A stretch of 64,000 bases of DNA, from NCBI GenBank assembly GCA_016933965.1, contig JAFGTS010000053.1, positions 1 through 64,000 of the forward strand. Direction: 5' to 3'. Position 1 is the stretch's first letter. Each line of letters opens with the position of its first letter. Shown piece after piece: positions 7,337-18,610 of the stretch. The translations under genes and the position numbers were made by a program. Source of the DNA: Deltaproteobacteria bacterium (GTDB lineage Bacteria; Desulfobacterota; Syntrophia; Syntrophales; UBA2210). A model generated the notes under the pieces. That model saw nothing but the letters and a program-made list of their open reading frames with translations, was not told the DNA's origin and did no database searches.

Positions 7337-10300
7337 TTACACCCCCTTCCTTTCGATATTCACCATGAACGATTTGCTCTCCGGTATCATGGTGTTCGGG
7401 TCACCGATGAAAGGCGTGAGCAGGTTGGCCGCGTCGCCCGTGGTAAATATCTCGGGTTTCTTGTCGCCATGGACATATTTTCTCATGGCCGTCGTTACCC
7501 AGCCATAGTGCCAGGGGATGCCGACCTGATGAATGACCTGTCCGCCAATGTTGAAGGGTTTGAACCGCTCCGTGACGATGGCCGTGCATTCCACTTCGCC
7601 CCGCACCGATCTGACGACGATCAGGTCACCGTTCTTAACGCTTTTCAATTTCGCCAGTTCCGTGCCCATTTCAACGAACATGCCGGGCTGCATTTCGGCG
7701 AGCCATGGTGTCCAGCGCGTCATGACGCCCGTCTGCCAGTGTTCACTCACGCGATACGTCGAACAGACAAAGGGAAAACGGGGATCACAGGAGGCCCGTG
7801 ACGCCGCTTCATCGCCCTTGAGGTCGAACCGGAATATAGTGGGGTTGATGAACTGCGGTGAGAGCAGGTTTTTCTCGATGGGACACTCAAGCGGTTCGTA
7901 GTGCTCAGGGAAAGGACCGTCCTTGAGCCCCGGACCGAAGATACTTCCCACACCGTGGGGTTTCATGATGAAGGGCGGCCGGCCGGAACCGGGTGCGCCG
8001 ACACCGTCGGGGACATCGCCGACCCAGGTGGAACCGTTCCACATGATGACGGGATGTTCCTTGTCCCAGGGTTCGCCTGTTTCAGGATCAACGGAGGCTC
8101 CATTGTAGATGATCCTCCTGTTCAGAGGCCAGCACCAGGACCACTCGGAATAGAGACCGACACCGGAACGATCCTTGCCGCCGCGGCGTGCCGCGTTGTT
8201 GCCGTCCGCATTGTAGGACTGGCAGTAGAGCCAGTTGCCTGATGAGGTCGAGCCGTCGGCCTGAAGGAAAGTAAAATTAGGAACCAGGTCGCCCTTCTTG
8301 AACTGCTGGCCCTTGACCTCCCTGTCCTCCAGGAAGTAGCCGTTGATCTCCCTGGCGATGTAATTCGTATCGAGATGGCGTATCCTTCCGTCGGCGCCCA
8401 TGGGACCGTAAGGCCAGGTCATCTTGGTGAATGCCTCGGCCAGGGGACCGCCTTCTTTCTCATAGAGTTCCTTTACCTTGAAGTAGAGCTCCGTGATGAT
8501 CTCGCCGTCGGGAAGTGCGTCTCCTGGCGGTTCGACCGCTTTGTACCGCCACTGCATCCAGCGTCCGCTGTTGGTGATGCTTCCCTCTTTCTCAATGGAA
8601 GCCGCGCAGGGGAGACTGAATACCTCGGTCTTGATCTTTGCCGGGTCCATGCCGGGACCCCGCCAGAAATTACCCGTCTCCGTGTCGAATATGTTGACGT
8701 TGACCATCCAGTCCAGCTTGGTCATGGCCTGCCTTGTCTTGTTGGAACTGGCACCGCTGCAGGCGGGGTTCTGCCCCCAGGAGAAGAAGCCCGTGAATTT
8801 CCCGACGCCCATTTCATCAAAGATATTCAACCATGTATAGGTCTTACCGTCATCCAGCTTGGGAAGGTAGCCGTAAGCCTCTTCCAGTGCTGCGTTCGTT
8901 CCGTAATGTGCCCGCAGCAGGCTGGCCATGTACACGGGTGTGTTCTTCCACCAGTTCAGGCTCTTCGGCTCCTTTGTGACCGGGGTGACGGCCTTCAGGT
9001 ATTCTTCCAACGTTGTCTGCGATCCCGTCGGTGTTTTCAAATAGCCGGGGAGAATGTGGAAAAGCAGGCACTGGTCTGTTGACCCCTGGACGTTTGATTC
9101 GCCCCGGAGCGCGTTCACGCCCCCGCCGGTGACCCCCATGTTGCCCAGGAGCAGCTGAATAATTGACATGGTCCGGATATTCTGCACGCCCACCGTATGC
9201 TGGGTCCAGCCCATGGCATACATGATGGTGCCCGCTTTGCCCCTCTCGCCGGTCTTGGCGTATTCCTTGTAAACTTCAAGCAGCTTGTCCTTGGGCGTTC
9301 CCGTGATGTTCGATACCATGTCCACGTCGTACCGCGAATAGTGTTTTTTCAGGAGCTGAAATACACAGTTCGGGGCCGTGAGGGACGTGTCCTTTACGAC
9401 GACGCCCTCCGGGTCCGTCACGAAGGACCAGGTGGACTTGTTATACGCCGCTCCCTCGAGGCCCGAGAAGACACCGTTGTTATCGCCGGGCATCCTGAAA
9501 TCGGGATTTACCAGGAACGATGCGTTTGTGTAATATTTGACGTATCTTTCGTTATAGAGGCCGTTATCCAGGATGTACTTGATCATACCTCCCAGAAAAG
9601 CGATGTCCGTGCCGGACCTGAGAGGCGCGTAAAGATCGGCCTTTGCCGATGTCTGCGTGAATCTCGGGTCGACACTGATCAGTTTTGACCCCTTTTCCAT
9701 TGCTTTAGTGACGTACTTGAAGGAGATGGGGTGGTTCGAGGCGGGGTTGCTCCCCATTGCCAGGATACAATCACTGTATTGAATGTCAATCCAGTGATTG
9801 GTCATCGCGCCGCGTCCGAACGACTCTGCCAGAGCCGCAACAGTCGCGGAGTGTCAGATACGGGCCTGATGTTCAATATAAACCAGACCCAACCCCCTCA
9901 GAAATTTTTGGTACACGAAACATTCTTCGTTGTCCATGGCGGCGCTGCCCACCGATGCCAGCCCTTCGGTGCGGTTCACCACCTGGCCTTTGTCGTTTTT
10001 GAAAACGAAGCTCTCATCCCGACTTTTCTTGATGTTACGCGCAATTTTCTCCAGAGCCCATTCCCAGGTGACTTCCTTCCATTCCGTGGCATAGGGTGCC
10101 CGGTAGAGAACCTTGTCAAGCCTGTTTTTGTTCTGGGAAAGCTGGTAGATAGAACCGCCTTTGCTGCAAAGCGATCCTCTGTTGATAGGATGATCCGGAT
10201 CCCCTTCGGTATTGATTACTTTGCCGTCCCGGCTGGATACGATAATACCGCATCCGACGGAACAATAGGGGCAGATCGTGGTAGTCTCTTTCGCGTACTT

Positions 10301-10411
10301 TATCTTCAACGGCTGCGCAAAAGCGGAAACGGGCTTCAAGTTGATGCCGATGCCGCCGGCCATCAAAGCAGTACCAGAGATCTTTAGGAACCCTCGTCTG
10401 CTGACATCCAT
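7337..10411 (-). CDS. fdnG: Formate dehydrogenase catalytic subunit, selenocysteine at UGA codon 186
   Basis: A 1024-residue molybdopterin (Mo or W) enzyme in two open segments, 10411-9857 and 9853-7337, joined in frame through one TGA at 9856-9854. The sequence around it is HQARI-[UGA]-HSATVAALAESFGRGAM, the same position as the active-site selenocysteine of E. coli FdnG. A twin-arginine signal (SRRGFLKI) directs export. A [4Fe-4S] motif, CPYCSVGC...SLCSKGG, follows. The length matches the family (1015 residues in E. coli). It oxidises formate in the periplasm. The UGA is read as selenocysteine rather than as a frameshift because the frame is continuous and the conserved block resumes at once. 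Confidence 0.96.
9821..9856 (-). promoter_or_regulatory. Bacterial SECIS element of fdnG
   Basis: Directly after UGA (9856-9854) the mRNA can pair CGACU with AGUCG, with an inner stem that has a bulged U and an apical loop GGCUCUG. The loop begins 17 nt after UGA with G in first position, as expected for a SelB-binding hairpin. It is the internal standard for the other UGA candidates in this window. Confidence 0.75.
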
Positions 10412-12007: not shown

Positions 12008-12607
12008 TCACATCTCCAGAAGTTCCGGTTTCACCCGCTTCAGAAAGACTAGGCAGAAGGCGGTGATGATCCCCTCAATGACCATTACCGGCAGGTGGGC
12101 GATCAGGATGATCTTCGCGGGGGTCAGGAACGCCCGGTCGATGCAGGCAAGGGAGAGCGCGACGAGCAGGGCGCTCACGGCGATGGAGAGAAAACCGCAG
12201 AAAAAACCCGCGGCCATGACCGCCCGGGTGCTTCGGGTCCTCACGATCCTCCTGAAAAGGTAGAAACAGAGAACAGCGGGAAGCGCCATATTGACGGTAT
12301 TGATGCCGAGGGTCGTTATGCCGCCGAACTGGAACATCAGTGCCTGCATGGCCAGGGCCACGGCGATGGCGGGGAATGCCGTCCATCCCAATATGATACC
12401 GGTCAGGCCGTTGAGCACGAGGTGCACGCTTGAGGGACCGATTGGAACGTGGATCAGGGATGCTATGAAAAATGACGCCGAAAGAACGGCGATCTTCGGC
12501 ATATTGTGGGCATCCATTTTCTTGATTCCCACGGCAAGTCCCGCTGCGGTCGCTGCAAACCCCGCCACCAGAACGGGCGCGTTCAGAACTCCTTCGGATA
12601 TATGCAT
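12008..12607 (-). CDS. nikM: NikM/CbiM-type substrate-binding membrane subunit
   Basis: A 199-residue protein that begins MHISEGVLNAPVL. The second residue His and the nearby metal-binding N-terminus are characteristic of CbiM/NikM, where the N-terminal amine and His2 chelate Ni or Co. The family block HVPIGPSSVHLVLNGLTGIILG is present, with about six transmembrane helices. No CbiN part is fused. Placement between nikK and nikL, and nikR upstream with its operators, favour nickel over cobalt. Confidence 0.9.
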   Translation of the reverse strand: MHISEGVLNAPVLVAGFAATAAGLAVGIKKMDAHNMPKIAVLSASFFIASLIHVPIGPSSVHLVLNGLTGIILGWTAFPAIAVALAMQALMFQFGGITTLGINTVNMALPAVLCFYLFRRIVRTRSTRAVMAAGFFCGFLSIAVSALLVALSLACIDRAFLTPAKIILIAHLPVMVIEGIITAFCLVFLKRVKPELLEM

Positions 12608-12612
12608 TCGCC

Positions 12613-13380
12613 TTATCTCATGTTTTCAAACTTGACCCAGATGACGGCGCCGATCTCAACATCCTTGCCCTTTATCTGGGTATCATCCATTCCCAGCGCG
12701 GCGAATCCCCACCATCCGGCGCACGGGGCGGCGTAGGTGAACACCCCGTTCTGATCGGCCTTGATGACCTGGGTTATCAGGGACTCGTTCGGCGCTGTAT
12801 AGCTCACGCCATCGCTGCCGTTATAGAGCTCCACCTCTACTTCCGCGTACGGCACGGGCTTTCCCTTGATCTTGACGATACCCTGAAAGACATTGCCCGC
12901 ATAGAGGCCGAAGGGCCTTGTCAGAGGAACGATTTCCGTTTTCAGCCCGATTTCCTCGTCCCAGCCGTCTTCAAGACCGAAGGCACTGAGTATGACCTTT
13001 GTATAATGCACGATATAGCAGTCCTCGGCGGGTTCCCAGTAGGGCTTTGGTACCATGAAGAACTGGTACACGCCGGGACGCTTCACGGGGTACGTGACGC
13101 TCCAGGATTTTCCACCCATGAACGTCGCGGGCTTCAGGTCATCGAGAATATCCGTCGTTTGGCCGTTGAAGAACACACCAAAGCGGGCCGGCTTCTCAAG
13201 GTTCATGCCGGATTGCTCGAAGGGGTGAGCGAACATGGCATGGATCTGGACATTTTTTGCGTCCTCCGATGACAAAACCTGCTTCGTGGGAATAAGCATG
13301 CCGAAGTGGGCCGTCGCGCCCGAGACCATGACGAACATCAACGCGGCCGTTAAGAGAATAATGCTGAACATTTTTTTCAT
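12613..13380 (-). CDS. nikK: NikK-like DUF4198 periplasmic protein
   Basis: A 255-residue exported protein. Its signal peptide ends around ATAHFGML, leaving a histidine near the mature N-terminus. The body is a DUF4198 beta-sandwich ([14 protein letters not shown] and [18 protein letters not shown]). In nickel ECF loci such proteins (NikK) are thought to help capture metal outside the membrane. CAGGAGCAGG precedes the ATG. It is the first gene of the nikKML operon and has a NikR-like half site at 13409-13435. Confidence 0.85.
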
Positions 13381-13408
13381 GAGAACCTGCTCCTGTTTTT
13401 TTTACTCA

Positions 13409-13435
13409 ATGGCATGAAAGTAATATTCGTAACAC
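13409..13435 (-). promoter_or_regulatory. Candidate NikR operator upstream of nikK
   Basis: On the minus strand the left half is GTGTTAC followed by GAATATTACTTTC. It matches the nikR-upstream site almost base for base through GAATAT, but its right half (ATGCCAT) is degenerate. It lies about 29-55 nt before the nikK start. Confidence 0.6.
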
Positions 13436-13445
13436 CATTGAACAC

Positions 13446-13479
13446 AAAAAAAGGGGTCGCTGTCGGTTACCCCTTTTTA
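13446..13479 (-). terminator. Terminator after nikR
   Basis: AAAAAGGGGT (13447-13456) and ACCCCTTTTT (13469-13478) form a stem with an 11-12-nt loop. On the minus strand the T-rich arm follows the stem. It separates nikR from nikKML, which therefore needs its own promoter. Confidence 0.75.
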
Positions 13480-13485
13480 TTCGTT

Positions 13486-13902
13486 CTACTCCGACTCTTT
13501 TCCGAGACTTGACATGCTCAGCGTTCCATATTTGACACCCTTTACCGAGCGCAAACGGTCCGCAACTTCCTCCACATTCCGAGCCTTCCCCCTGACGACG
13601 ACCACTTCCAGGCAGTTGTCGTGGTCGAGGTGGATGTGCTGGGTGGAGACGATGATGTTCTGATAGTCATGCTGAATACTGACGAGACGGTTGAGAAGTT
13701 CCCGCTTGTGGTGATCATAGACATAGGTGATGGCCCCCGCGACCTCGCTGTCCCCGGCCCATTCCTTCCGGACCAGTTCCGCCCGTATCAGGTCGCGCAA
13801 TGCCTCCGAGCGGTTCGTGTAATTCTTGTTCCTGATGAGACGATCGAACCGGTCGAGGAGCTTTTTTTCAAGGGAGACACCAAATCGAACCAATTCAGAC
13901 AT
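13486..13902 (-). CDS. nikR: Nickel-responsive regulator NikR
   Basis: A 138-residue protein with a ribbon-helix-helix N-terminus (VRFGVSLEKKLLDRFDRLI...NRSEALRDLIR) and a C-terminal ACT-like nickel domain. The metal ligands are visible in STQHIHLDHDNCLEV: His, His and Cys in the family spacing. The start is taken at ATG 13902 (MSELVRF) because RHH similarity begins there and the operator lies just upstream. A longer in-frame ORF back to 14013 would read through that operator. With nickel bound it should repress nikKML and itself. Confidence 0.95.
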   Translation of the reverse strand: MSELVRFGVSLEKKLLDRFDRLIRNKNYTNRSEALRDLIRAELVRKEWAGDSEVAGAITYVYDHHKRELLNRLVSIQHDYQNIIVSTQHIHLDHDNCLEVVVVRGKARNVEEVADRLRSVKGVKYGTLSMSSLGKESE

Positions 13903-13913
13903 AGACACCAGCC

Positions 13914-13940
13914 GTGTTATGAATATCAGATTTGTAACAC
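13914..13940. promoter_or_regulatory. NikR operator upstream of nikR
   Basis: GTGTTAT-N13-GTAACAC is an inverted repeat with one mismatch, starting 12 nt before the nikR start. It fits the GTGTTAC-N13/14-GTAACAC form I recall as proposed for NikR in deltaproteobacteria. This implies autoregulation. Confidence 0.75.
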
Positions 13941-13986
13941 ATGTTCTTCTTGTGTCAAGAAATAAATAAGACGGCTTCGCCGTTTC

Positions 13987-14042
13987 CCCTCGATCCCTGA
14001 TCCCGTAATCCACTAATCCGTAATCCGTAATCCCTTAATCCC
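13987..14042 (-). repeat. GGATTACG tandem repeat after the cytochrome gene
   Basis: In the sense direction of the upstream cytochrome gene this reads GGATTAAG, GGATTACG, GGATTACG, GGATTAGT, GGATTACGG, with degenerate ends. It begins within ten bases of the stop codon. Confidence 0.75.
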
Positions 14043-14047
14043 GACGC

Positions 14048-15466
14048 CTACCAGGTGCGCCGGTGGCAGGTGAGGCAGGGTTCGTCCTTCTTCGTGAAGA
14101 TGCTCCGGCTGACTGATGCCGGGTGCCTTTCCGGGAGCGGTTTCATTTCCGGCGCAAGGACCGTTTTGTTCGCCGCTGCTTCGCCGTCGCGCAGGTCCGT
14201 TATGCTCAGGAAGAGCGAGCCGTTACCGTGGCATGCCGTGCACCGGGCGTTCTGCGGTGTTCTGCGGCGTATGGAGTGGGGGGTCGCCGGTTTCCAGGTG
14301 GGGGCCCGGTCGAAGTTCTTCAGGCCATCGGGACCGTAAAAATCGAAGGTTCCCTGAGTGACCGGCACGTGCCGGAGGGTCACATAGCGTTCAGGCCGCT
14401 CCCTGCATCGCTGAGGGTTCAGGCCGATCTTGAGATCCATCGAAGGGGGGTGGCTTGTGAAGACCGGCATGCCTGAGGGATCCTTGCCTACATGGCAGTT
14501 GAAACAATTTTTATAGGGAAGGGCGTGGCATACCTGGCAGCTGACCCTGTTTCTGTGGATGGCATGACAGGTCAGGGCGAAGGGTTCCTGCGAGCTCTTC
14601 GGGTCATGACAGGCGGTACACCGCGGGCGGGTTGAGACCCCGTAGCGGTCGACCGTCCCCTGTCCCTTTCCGTGCATTTCGCCGGCGCCATGACAGTCTA
14701 CGCAGGGCATTCCCGCCCGTTCACTGTGGACGTCCGGCTCCATTCCCGGATTGCGGCCACGGTATTCATCCCCCACCCTCGTTCCATGACAGGCGATGCA
14801 GCTCTCATCATCGGACGGTCGCTTCAGGAATCGGTGACCCGCCGCAAGGCCGCCGCCGACCTGGGCGGGACGGCTCACATGGCAGCCGCCGCACGTCGCG
14901 TGACAGCTCATGCAGTGCTGCTGAACGGCACCGTCCACGAAGGAAGCCTTTTCGGGGAGCTCATGTTTCCTGATGTCTATTTTCTTTTGGATCCCGGCGA
15001 GCGTTGTATGAAGACTTCCGATGCCGAGCCGCGTTATCTCCGCGTGACAGGTGCCGCATCGTTTCGATGGAGCGGGATGGGAAGGGTCCTCGATGAGGCC
15101 TTCGTGTGCTTCCCGTGGATCTTGGGTATCGGGATCACCCCCGTGGCAGGTTGCGCAGGAGATTTTTCCGTGGACGTCCTTTTTCAGGAAATCCGTGTCG
15201 ATCAGGTATTTTCTAAAAGGCTCCACCGGAGCCGCTTCCCCGCCTCACCCCTCTCTGTCGTCATCTGCGGACCGGCAGCCGGTGCCGGCCGATCCATCGG
15301 TCTGGACACCAGTCAGGCCCTTCAGCCCCTCCTCGCTGGTGTGGCAGGTGATGCAGCCATCGGAAGCAATGGATACGGACGGTATGGTCATTACGAAAAG
15401 AAACAGCAACAACGGCAGTATTATGATGTATGAAGCATCAGGGATGCGGTGTCTCCTTCGTTTCAT
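14048..15466 (-). CDS. Multihaem c-type cytochrome with in-frame UGA (candidate selenoprotein, Sec74)
   Basis: Two segments in one continuous frame are separated only by TGA at 15247-15245. The first (start ATG 15466, AAAGGA eight bases before) encodes a signal peptide (n-region KRRRHR, long hydrophobic core) and one haem motif, CITCH. The second has eleven more CXXCH motifs (CATCH, CGTCH, CMSCH, CGGCH, CIACH, CVDCH, CTACH, CQVCH, CFNCH, CTACH, CLTCH) but no export signal of its own. The joined product is 472 residues with 12 haem motifs and an EG-[UGA]-GGEAAP junction. It follows resB and ccsA, whose products attach haem to exported cytochromes. Alternatives are a nonsense-mutated pseudogene or a sequence error. 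The intact frames on both sides and the hairpin after UGA favour recoding. Confidence 0.75.
15219..15247 (-). promoter_or_regulatory. Candidate SECIS hairpin in the multihaem cytochrome gene
   Basis: After the UGA (15247-15245), GGCUCC and GGAGCC form a perfect 6-bp stem (15233-15219) closed by the loop GGU. The loop starts 18 nt after UGA and has G in its first two positions, within the loose bacterial SECIS rule. Such short GC hairpins also occur by chance. Confidence 0.5.
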
Positions 15467-15509
15467 GCCCCGATCCTTTATGATGATCATCGGTAACCCC
15501 CGTCATCCG

Positions 15510-16337
15510 TCACATGTAGCTGTGCAGGCCGGCAAGAATATAATTGACGCCGAGATATGTGAATATCACGGCGGCGAATCCGATTATCGCCAGAAGGGAC
15601 ATCCTGAGTCCCCGCCACCCCCGGGTGACCCGCGCATGCAGATAGGTACCGTAAATAAGCCAGGTTATGAAAGACCAGGTCTCCTTCGGGTCCCATCCCC
15701 AGTAACGACCCCAGGCCATGTCGGCCCATGCCGCGCCCGTCACGATCCCCAGGGTGAGGAGGACGAAGCCGATGGAGATCATTCGATAGGTCACTTCATC
15801 AAGGAGTTCCTTGTCGGGGAGCAATGAAACGAAACGGCCGACCTCTTGACGCTTTACAAGATACATGATGCTGGTGGCGAAAGAGATGGCGAAACAGGCA
15901 TAGGCGAGAAAGGAACTCATTACGTGACTGATCAGCCAGTTGCTTTGCAGTGCCGGGATCAGGGGCTCTATTTCACCGGCGACCCTCCCCGACAGCGACG
16001 CGTAGGCAAGAAGCAGAAAGGCAAAGAAACAGGAGACGGCGCCGATCAGACTGCCGCGGTACCGTTTTCTCATGAAAAGAAGCATGACCGTGATGGACCA
16101 TGAAAAGAATACCAGCGATTCGTAGAAATTTGCCAGAGGGGCGTGGCCGTATCCGATATGGTAGGAATGGACCCACCTGAGAATTATGGCGGCAGTCTGT
16201 GTAATAAAACCGATGACGGTGATGACCGCCGCGCCCCTGTTTGTTCTATCGCTCCGGAATATGAAGGCCGTCAGGAACAGGAATGCTGAAAAGAAATACA
16301 CAAAGGTGACGATGCTGATCAGGTAGGTATCCTTCAT
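15510..16337 (-). CDS. ccsA: Cytochrome c biogenesis protein CcsA/ResC
   Basis: A 275-residue membrane protein with about eight helices and the tryptophan-rich haem-handling WWD motif WGRYWGWDPKETWSF. External histidines (RWVHSYH, ISHVMSS, YLHARV) are placed for haem ligation. With ResB it forms the System II cytochrome c synthetase. The start is at ATG 16337 (MKDTYLIS), four bases after resB. The ORF is open further upstream, but that part is resB coding sequence. The cytochrome gene follows 43 nt downstream, so the three genes probably form one operon. Confidence 0.93.
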   Translation of the reverse strand: MKDTYLISIVTFVYFFSAFLFLTAFIFRSDRTNRGAAVITVIGFITQTAAIILRWVHSYHIGYGHAPLANFYESLVFFSWSITVMLLFMRKRYRGSLIGAVSCFFAFLLLAYASLSGRVAGEIEPLIPALQSNWLISHVMSSFLAYACFAISFATSIMYLVKRQEVGRFVSLLPDKELLDEVTYRMISIGFVLLTLGIVTGAAWADMAWGRYWGWDPKETWSFITWLIYGTYLHARVTRGWRGLRMSLLAIIGFAAVIFTYLGVNYILAGLHSYM

Positions 16338-16341
16338 GAGA

Positions 16342-17667
16342 TTATGCCAGACCCGCCTTCCGCGCCTTTTCCCGGATCCGCTCCTCAAAGGCGGCCGCGT
16401 TTCTGTCCGCCTGTGCCGCCACGGTTATCCGTGATCCTCCTTCACCCGTTTCGACGCGCACCCACATACGCTGCCGGCTCACCATGAGGCTCAACGCAAC
16501 GCCCACGACGATGAGAATGAAGCCCGCCCTGACGATGTTGACACCGGGATCTTTCCGTATCTGCAGGCCCGAATAGTACAGGCCGTCAAAATCTTCGAAG
16601 GTGAAGATGAAATCCCCCGTCGCGCCGGCCTGTGATGGTCTGTTGCGCGGAAGCCAGAAGATCTGGTGGGGGGTTCCGGGTTCGATATACACGGCCAGGA
16701 CCGCCGGGCCCTGTCCCTCGAAATTGGGAACGAACCGGCCCACCGCGATACTGGCGTCGACGCCGGGAAGAGAGGCCTTCTTCATGGGAAGTACCGTGAG
16801 CCGATGGTTCTCGCCGGTCCTCTGATCCCGGGCGTCGATGGTGAAATCTTTGACGGCGGCGAGCTCGTAAGTGGATTGATGGAACTTCAGGCCGCGATAG
16901 AAGAGCGGGTGGTTGACCTGAATCGAATCCGAGAGAACGGGCTTTTCATTTTCAAGTATCGTCACGTCCGTTTTGAACACCCGGGGCATTCCCGACGGAT
17001 AGAAATCCACGGTGAAACGGTCGCAGCGCACGCTGAAATCAAGGGTCACGCCGTCGTCATCACCGGAACGGAAGATCATATTCGATTCCTGCCCCTCGAT
17101 GAGCGTCATCGAGCCGGTGAAGCCCCAGATCGTTCCGATCAGGGCCCCTCCAAGGATAAGCAGGACACTCAGGTGAACCAGCGGCATTCCCAGCTTCGCC
17201 CACCGCCATCGCTCACAGAAGAAGTACATTTTCCCGTCCCTCCGGGTGATCCGGGGAGACGGGCCGAAGGCTTTCAGAAAAGAGATCGTCCGCTCTTCGA
17301 TTACCGGAAGAGGGTCATCGCTGTGAATGGCGATTCTGGTCCGGGAGTCGGTGAATACCGAGTCGTCCGCCTCGCGTGCTTCACGCGCGATCTGCCGCCG
17401 AATCGCCGGGATGCGCTGGATCGTGCAGGCTGTTATGTTCATGGCGAGCAGCACCAGGAGAGAGATGAACCACCATGAATGGTACATGTCGAAGAGATCG
17501 AAGAACTCAAGAATGGAGAACATCCGGGGGCTGTACAACGTTTCATACCGTTCAAGCGGCAGGCCCTGTTGGATGATGGTTCCGAAGATGGATGCGACGG
17601 CCAGCGTGAGAAAGAGGACGATGGTCAGTCTCACTGAAGCCAGAAAGTTGTAAATGCTCTTACCCAT
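16342..17667 (-). CDS. resB: Cytochrome c biogenesis protein ResB
   Basis: A 441-residue protein with three N-terminal transmembrane helices (SVRLTIVLFLTLAVASIFGT, WWFISLLVLLAMNITACT, PLVHLSVLLILGGALIG), a large periplasmic beta domain (VNHPLFYRGLKFHQSTYE) and a final helix (FILIVVGVALSLMVS). This is the ResB/Ccs1 arrangement. ATG 17667 has GGGGGAACGG upstream, and ATG 17706 is also possible. The far longer ORF to 18390 is antisense to the divergent DUF364 gene and is not real. It chaperones apocytochrome for the CcsA synthetase. Confidence 0.93.
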   Translation of the reverse strand: MGKSIYNFLASVRLTIVLFLTLAVASIFGTIIQQGLPLERYETLYSPRMFSILEFFDLFDMYHSWWFISLLVLLAMNITACTIQRIPAIRRQIAREAREADDSVFTDSRTRIAIHSDDPLPVIEERTISFLKAFGPSPRITRRDGKMYFFCERWRWAKLGMPLVHLSVLLILGGALIGTIWGFTGSMTLIEGQESNMIFRSGDDDGVTLDFSVRCDRFTVDFYPSGMPRVFKTDVTILENEKPVLSDSIQVNHPLFYRGLKFHQSTYELAAVKDFTIDARDQRTGENHRLTVLPMKKASLPGVDASIAVGRFVPNFEGQGPAVLAVYIEPGTPHQIFWLPRNRPSQAGATGDFIFTFEDFDGLYYSGLQIRKDPGVNIVRAGFILIVVGVALSLMVSRQRMWVRVETGEGGSRITVAAQADRNAAAFEERIREKARKAGLA

Positions 17668-17836
17668 TCCATCCGTTCCCCCGAGTGTTGTGGTGATAAT
17701 ATCCATTTCACACCCTCTGTCAAGGCAATAACAAGAGCGGCGATGATGATCCCTCCGGGAAACCGTTCCGCCACGAACAGGATTGACCGTCCGGGGACAA
17801 TCATGTAAGAAGCAGATAAAAATGAGGATAGTATAT

Positions 17837-18610
17837 ATGTTGCAGACAGGACATATAGCTTCCGCTCTTTTCGATCTCCTTTCTGAACGGGCGGAGAACA
17901 CGACGATACAGGATGTACGCATCGGGCTTGGGTATGCGGGCGTCAGGATTGCGGAGGGGAGACTGGGGCTGGCGGCGATCCTGAGGAACGAGTTACGAAG
18001 GGGATGCTCCCTGCTGGACCGGGCGGGGACTCTTGCCGGGAGCGGCGCGGTGGAGTTGCTGCGTCTGGTCGTCGACGGCCGGAACCCCCTGGAAAAGGCC
18101 CTGGGCCTGGCAACGGCCAACGCCCTGTCCGGGCCGGTCGAGGAACCGGAGAGTGATGCCCTGGAGGAAATGAACCTGTCACCCGATGACCGGGTAGCAA
18201 TGGTGGGATTTTTCGGTCCCCTTCTGGGACGGATACGGAAGCGTGGCGCGTCCCTGGACATTATCGAGAAGGACCCGTCCATGGGGCCTTCATCACCGGT
18301 ACAGGAACGGCGGAAAATACTCGGTGACTGTACGATCGCCATTATAACGGCAACATCGATACTGAATGATTCCATCGAGGAGATCCTCAACGAGTTGAAT
18401 TCCCCCCGTCATGCAGTGATCCTGGGGCCCTCGACGCCGCTGTGCCCGGAAGCTTTTCTGGGGACCCCCGTAACGTATCTCGGGGGGTCGGTTCCCCGGG
18501 ATCCCGAAAAGGTTCTCACGATCATTTCCGAGGGCGGAGGAACGCCCGCCATGCGTCCCTGCCTCAAGTTCGTCAACCTTCGTCTGCAAGGAAGTGATGG
18601 GTCGCCGTGA
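17837..18610 (+). CDS. DUF364 (putative heavy-metal chelation) family protein
   Basis: A 257-residue cytoplasmic protein. The C-terminal half has the DUF364 pattern: VAMVGFFGPLLGRI, ASLDIIEKDP, CTIAIITATSILNDSIEEIL and HAVILGPSTPLCPEAF. The N-terminal half resembles the associated DUF4213 module. The ATG at 17837 is chosen for GAGG nine bases upstream; in-frame ATG 17822 and TTG 17783 remain possible. It overlaps mobB by four bases (GTGA), which suggests translational coupling and a link to molybdenum-cofactor enzymes. The biochemical role of the family is not settled. Confidence 0.82.
   Translation: MLQTGHIASALFDLLSERAENTTIQDVRIGLGYAGVRIAEGRLGLAAILRNELRRGCSLLDRAGTLAGSGAVELLRLVVDGRNPLEKALGLATANALSGPVEEPESDALEEMNLSPDDRVAMVGFFGPLLGRIRKRGASLDIIEKDPSMGPSSPVQERRKILGDCTIAIITATSILNDSIEEILNELNSPRHAVILGPSTPLCPEAFLGTPVTYLGGSVPRDPEKVLTIISEGGGTPAMRPCLKFVNLRLQGSDGSP

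Follow-up and report, generated by a model that had tools for sequence, protein, structure and literature searches.

Here we present an exported multihaem cytochrome c whose gene is interrupted by an in-frame UGA. Judged from its sequence and that of its relatives, the gene encodes one continuous protein in which SelB would decode the UGA as selenocysteine (Sec) via a hairpin 11 nt downstream, a reading to which we assign a probability of about 95 %. The gene lies within a 64,000-nucleotide stretch of contig JAFGTS010000053.1 of a Deltaproteobacteria bacterium (assembly GCA_016933965.1, Syntrophales), hereafter called the window. It belongs to a distinct, widespread and uncatalogued family of Sec-containing multihaem electron carriers or enzymes from one phylum of anaerobes. 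This family has eleven core haems (11 to 13 CXXCH motifs in most members) and one Sec, whose glycine-flanked loop links haem 1 to haem 2. A preliminary description of the locus had already proposed Sec. We now support this assignment because the UGA and its flanks are conserved (76 of 79 homologues), because the hairpin is conserved with compensated base pairs and because the genome has a complete Sec machinery, including selA, selB and tRNA-Sec. Taken as a whole, the combination of Sec decoding, a distinct family and a selenol-based mechanism is likely to be the best explanation of these data.

The gene consists of two open frames, 15490-15245 and 15226-14048 on the minus strand, which share one reading frame, with a single TGA (15247-15245) between them (Table 1). 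Rechecking the open frames and the motif count showed that the preliminary description had been right in its coordinates, in its CXXCH counts and in reporting a single in-frame TGA without a frameshift. The ATG at 15490 and the position 15466 given in the preliminary description (MKRRRH..., with a signal peptide) are equally plausible starts. The part ahead of the UGA comprises the signal peptide and one CXXCH, leaving 11 of the 12 CXXCH motifs to the part after it. Ten of these belong to the family core and the last (CLTCH) is common to a subgroup with 13 haems. Haem 12 just precedes the end of the protein, whose C-terminus is shorter than that of the 13-haem subgroup, and a search downstream of the gene for a remnant of the missing C-terminal anchor found none. 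Right behind the cytochrome stop codon, where longer relatives have a membrane anchor, stand short GGATTACGGATTA repeats (window 13990-14040). That the gene is a decaying copy, a pseudogene possibility also named in the preliminary description, was considered and rejected: every invariant position, that is all 11 core CXXCH and nine further His, is intact.

Table 1. Coordinates of the cytochrome gene, its parts and its upstream neighbours in the window.
Feature	Position	Strand	Remarks
Gene for 12-CXXCH cytochrome c, predicted to contain Sec	14048..15490	minus	480 aa with UGA read through; homologues phylum-wide
First haem motif CITCH, ahead of UGA	15341..15355	minus	invariant in 79 rows
In-frame UGA, predicted Sec82 (numbering from ATG 15490)	15245..15247	minus	motif REG-U-GGEAAPVEP
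SECIS-like hairpin GGCUCC-GGU-GGAGCC	15219..15233	minus	11 nt after UGA; G-U in apical loop
Eleven-CXXCH downstream frame	14048..15226	minus	without signal sequence of its own
CcsA-type cytochrome c maturation protein	15510..16388	minus	directly upstream; family F2, in 8 of 40 neighbourhoods
ResB-type cytochrome c maturation protein	16342..18390	minus	open frame, true start probably inside; family F3, in 8 of 40 neighbourhoods

Comparison of the read-through protein with 100 related genomes revealed full-length homologues, nearly all of which have exactly one TGA. The search was widened to the class (155 genomes) and then to the phylum (395 genomes), and strong matches (E below 1e-60) were obtained in 48 of the 395 sampled phylum genomes. 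In the resulting 79 distinct homologue rows, from 75 genomes and 28 families, the codon at the site is TGA in 76 rows and TGG, GCA and TAC in one row each. The TGA codons fall in the same alignment column, with conserved flanks that give the motif EG-U-(G/A)G, and none of the 79 aligned rows has TAA, TAG or a Cys codon there. The alignment of homologues suggested in the preliminary description thus places U at the junction in 76 of 79 cases and never C. Homologues with neither Cys nor Sec at this position, which that description had named as speaking against Sec, number only three, with Trp, Ala and Tyr once each. Cys-containing homologues are usual, though not obligatory, for bacterial selenoproteins.

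A conserved TGA without TAA, TAG or Cys in its place is not what a random stop, a pseudogene or an operon of two genes would produce. It is true that a conventional gene caller would divide the gene at this codon and that the hairpin of the window by itself is not unusually stable. However, a true stop, whether in a broken gene or between two genes for a monohaem peptide and a second protein, is very improbable given TGA and no other stop at the site across 28 families, a protein motif conserved on either side of it and downstream haem motifs that are all intact. In addition the second frame has no export signal, so that the downstream part could not be exported alone, as had been claimed from the start.

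A hairpin follows the UGA in nearly all Sec forms. Its conserved stem of 6-7 bp starts 11 nt downstream in both counted groups and is shifted by one codon in a few divergent members. In the group of the window gene the hairpin reads GGCTCC-GTT or GGT-GGAGCC, and in two loci (L112, L113) the arms are swapped to GGAGCC-GTT-GGCTCC, changing the protein from APLEP to EPLAP while the stem is kept. An alignment of the close group (A2), which left out the most divergent members (L143-L146 apart from L145), has 97.1 % of its cells paired and two pairs changed on both sides; its covariation score was matched by 0 of 500 shuffles and collapses once the arms are slid. The hairpin of the second group is 94.1 % paired, with weaker support because several pairs never vary. 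The hairpin region folds more stably than synonymous-codon recodings that use the codons of each gene, with a mean z of -1.04 (n=73) compared with one of -0.02 (n=222) for control windows of the same genes. The effect of synonymous recoding on the window hairpin alone is small (z -0.52), and when folded alone this hairpin does not exceed shuffled sequence in stability (z -0.25). Since the energy of the single hairpin is not unusual, one sequence provides no evidence and the comparative data serve instead. The SECIS element that the preliminary description had expected downstream of the UGA was recovered as a conserved hairpin with compensatory changes, while no Rfam SECIS model matched at the cytochrome UGA. 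Elsewhere in the window (7337-10411), fdnG is split by an in-frame UGA and has a SECIS_3 match at 9859-9801 (39.2 bits, E 4.5e-6) that falls below the gathering score of 63.

The genome of the window organism itself encodes the factors for Sec decoding. Both selA and selB score over their cut-offs, and tRNA-Sec is found with a UCA anticodon (56.9 bits), its gene being cut by the contig end. Counting against a need for Sec, three homologues do without it. The first (G035, L002) has the Trp codon TGG at the site, yet retains the hairpin and the machinery (selA, selB). The second (G151, L120) has the Ala codon GCA, and its genome, 74 % complete, shows neither selA nor a selB over the cut-off. The third (G481) has Tyr, with selA and selB present and the hairpin lost. 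The single TGG might suggest that the UGA is read as another residue, such as Trp through near-cognate readthrough, but this is scarcely credible against a complete Sec machinery, a SECIS-like hairpin conserved at a fixed 11-nt spacing and the relative with Ala instead of the codon, in whose genome neither selA nor selB was found.

Within the family alignment, the 11 haem CXXCH motifs and nine further His are invariant, and outside CXXCH none of the columns of the 79 rows is a Cys column, even if an occupancy of 30 % is accepted. A maximum-likelihood tree separates two clades with 100/100 support, group A with 19 rows, including the window gene, and group B with 59 rows. Part of group A carries 13 haems plus a membrane helix at the C-terminus, and two group B members reach 17 haems through an N-terminal multihaem extension; at L028 and L097 the region fused to the group B protein is of the triheme (nanowire_3heme) kind, for a total of 17 CXXCH. 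Beside the main gene of another genome (G001, L116:4168-4764) lies a five-haem paralogue of 199 aa in which the Sec site and the central haems are lost. None of the NCBIfam cut-offs is passed by the family. An initial structure model, computed for the window protein from 31 sequences, reached a pLDDT of 45 and was discarded. The second, built for a group B protein with 71 sequences, has a pLDDT of 84, with the Sec loop at about 60 among its least confident parts.

The gene stands directly behind those for ResB (16342-18390) and CcsA (15510-16388), a linkage recognized in the preliminary description. Downstream on the same strand (window 12008-14013) are genes for a NikR regulator, a DUF4198 protein and CbiM, apparently a set for nickel or cobalt uptake that has no relation to the cytochrome. 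We compared 40 neighbourhoods of family cytochrome genes, and a rhodanese family is present in 17 of them. A frequent order in group B is Sec-cytochrome, two-domain rhodanese, eight-haem cytochrome, rhodanese, nine-haem cytochrome with a membrane part, ResB and CcsA, a set whose members are often absent or differently arranged. The neighbouring two-domain rhodanese matches mercaptopyruvate sulfurtransferase and also, below the cut-off, ExtH (67 bits, cut-off 200). At two loci (L121:2477-7243 and L122:8915-13186) the conserved neighbours have no close NCBIfam family; one is an eight-haem protein (CGGCHNY, HQDVWL), and the other has nine haems and a half that resembles a membrane cytochrome b. 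A cytochrome b561 like thiosulfate reductase cytochrome b occurs in five neighbourhoods and directly follows the gene in four (group A, L115-L118); in L117 the order is ResB, CcsA, Sec-cytochrome, b561 and formate dehydrogenase. The window itself has no rhodanese nearby, and the C-terminal anchor and b561 are absent from it. The organism's best match to the group A b561 lies on contig C3, beside another selenocytochrome.

We infer that the Sec would be a redox selenol in a flexible Gly-rich loop, and the redox role suggested for it in the preliminary description fits the data. We offer a mechanism for this tentatively, holding it at somewhat less than an even chance. The selenol would be the chemically active group and would attack a periplasmic sulfur or selenium compound; persulfide, polysulfide, thiosulfate, tetrathionate or selenite are candidate substrates, guessed from the neighbours and from a distant relative. 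The substrate might be handed over by the rhodaneses encoded next door in many relatives. The resulting Se-S or Se-Se adduct would then be cleaved by electrons of the adjacent haem chain and not by a partner thiol, with the electrons drawn from the quinol pool, in some relatives via the cytochrome b561 encoded beside the gene. More speculatively, and with appreciable doubt, the family may represent a new type of selenoenzyme: a single selenol on a mobile loop would act directly with haem and without a partner thiol, a haem wire would feed its two-electron chemistry on a sulfur or selenium compound, and Cys could not substitute. If Cys cannot replace Sec, this would explain the absence of Cys homologues. 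Cys is never at the site here but is found in the octahaem tetrathionate reductase (Otr) family, so the chemistry may need selenium specifically.

The role as an axial ligand, also suggested in the preliminary description, is less likely than a redox selenol. The Sec would then tune or open one haem as a selenolate ligand, and the protein would be mainly an electron carrier. The haems outnumber the invariant non-CXXCH His by two, so that one or two may lack a conserved distal His and an open or Sec-ligated haem is conceivable; however, the missing ligands could come from other residues. The usual ligands of haem c include Cys, Met and His, whereas the replacements seen at the site are Trp, Ala and Tyr and never Cys, Met or His. 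The Gly-rich loop is also among the parts of the model with the lowest confidence. On this balance we consider ligation by Sec, with electron transfer as the main function, unlikely.

We likewise regard as rather improbable that the Sec is present and its function is confined to reducing selenite or tellurite, like that suggested for the Geobacter Ext gene cluster. The resemblance of the neighbouring two-domain rhodanese to ExtH, the weak ExtM matches in most members and the impaired selenite and tellurite reduction of G. sulfurreducens without ExtI (PMC5877670) would fit such a role. However, all Ext matches lie far under their cut-offs, ExtKL is not matched, and a search that was not beta-barrel-specific identified no ExtI-like porin in the examined neighbourhoods.

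The family would offer a direct test of the role of selenium beside haem, since it has neither Cys homologues nor partner thiols. Automatic annotation would usually split its genes at the UGA. One relative genome, which we take to be that of Syntrophus aciditrophicus, carries a family cytochrome with the junction GEG-U-AGAPPPVK. The published list of 19 selenoproteins of this species is without any cytochrome (PMC1794560). Likewise, the present family does not appear among the 119 selenoprotein families of a 2026 compendium, whose haem proteins include ExtKL, GSU2204 and one Otr-family entry (PMC13188914). Selenocytochromes are represented in this compendium by ExtKL and by a GenBank-annotated Otr-type entry (PMC13188914), and family scores argue against that entry, WP_331457571.1, being meant to cover proteins like the present one.

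ExtKL, or MccSep (Geobacter GSU2937-GSU2936; PDB 9wt8-9wtc), is also an exported multihaem cytochrome c with one UGA-encoded Sec from the same phylum. However, all five of its haems precede the UGA and a haem-free part follows, whereas in the present family one haem precedes it and ten or more follow. We considered that the family is ExtKL and dropped this, given the different haem layout, a profile comparison that aligned 24 columns only and the lack of NF040886 (ExtKL) matches in six proteins at E 0.1 and in 71 members at E 0.001. A profile from the ExtKL loci matches the PDB entries of MccSep, including the U325A variant (E 1.9e-191), and the ExtKL family thus has solved structures, of the Sec form and of U325A. 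A 2007 study put ExtKL forward as a candidate selenoprotein and found no SECIS for it; at that time no homologue without Sec was known (PMC1914089). The protein is also discussed by Otero et al. and Jahan et al. (PMC6148476, PMC5877670). ExtM and ExtN (NF040943, NF040967) resemble the family through weak profile matches over CXXCH-rich segments in most members, but the scores of about 30 bits fall short of the cut-offs (800 and 200), and the 2026 compendium lists no Sec for them (PMC13188914). The GSU2204 family (NF041027), a selenoprotein with CXXCH in the same list (PMC13188914), differs in being a beta-barrel family and matches no member of the present one.

The Otr family (TIGR04315; Shewanella Otr, PDB 1sp3) shares with the present family a Sec or Cys ahead of a haem motif, a similar order of D-V-H and H-x-KV-C-x-x-C-H motifs and, in some members of both, a C-terminal membrane helix with an adjacent cytochrome b561. 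Many Otr members have Sec and others Cys at one place, NNF-U or NNF-C, equivalent to position 64 of 1sp3, where the Cys presumably lies near the lysine-ligated active haem. A second selenocytochrome of the window organism, outside the window on contig C3 (L182:6543-7973), is of this octahaem family; its UGA is at LNNL-U-VTPQSNW, its relatives have U or C there (NNF-U or NNF-C), and a cytochrome b561 follows. Otr differs from the present family in having eight haems against eleven core haems, and in that its Sec or Cys stands between the first two of its haems, the counterparts in the alignment of haems 3 and 4 of the present family, while the Sec of the present family sits before the aligned region. 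Only 6 of 71 members match TIGR04315, weakly (best E 2.4e-7), and none reaches the cut-off of 375 bits. Profile comparison by hhalign gives 99.2 % (E 3.7e-19), a score of the kind that CXXCH-rich profiles inflate, and 1sp3 is the top Foldseek match in the PDB at a level that is not significant (E 0.057, TM 0.38). Because CXXCH repeats raise such scores, we read the link as probable distant kinship with Otr and not as membership. The present proteins would form a third selenocytochrome family, larger than and separate from both ExtKL and the Otr type.
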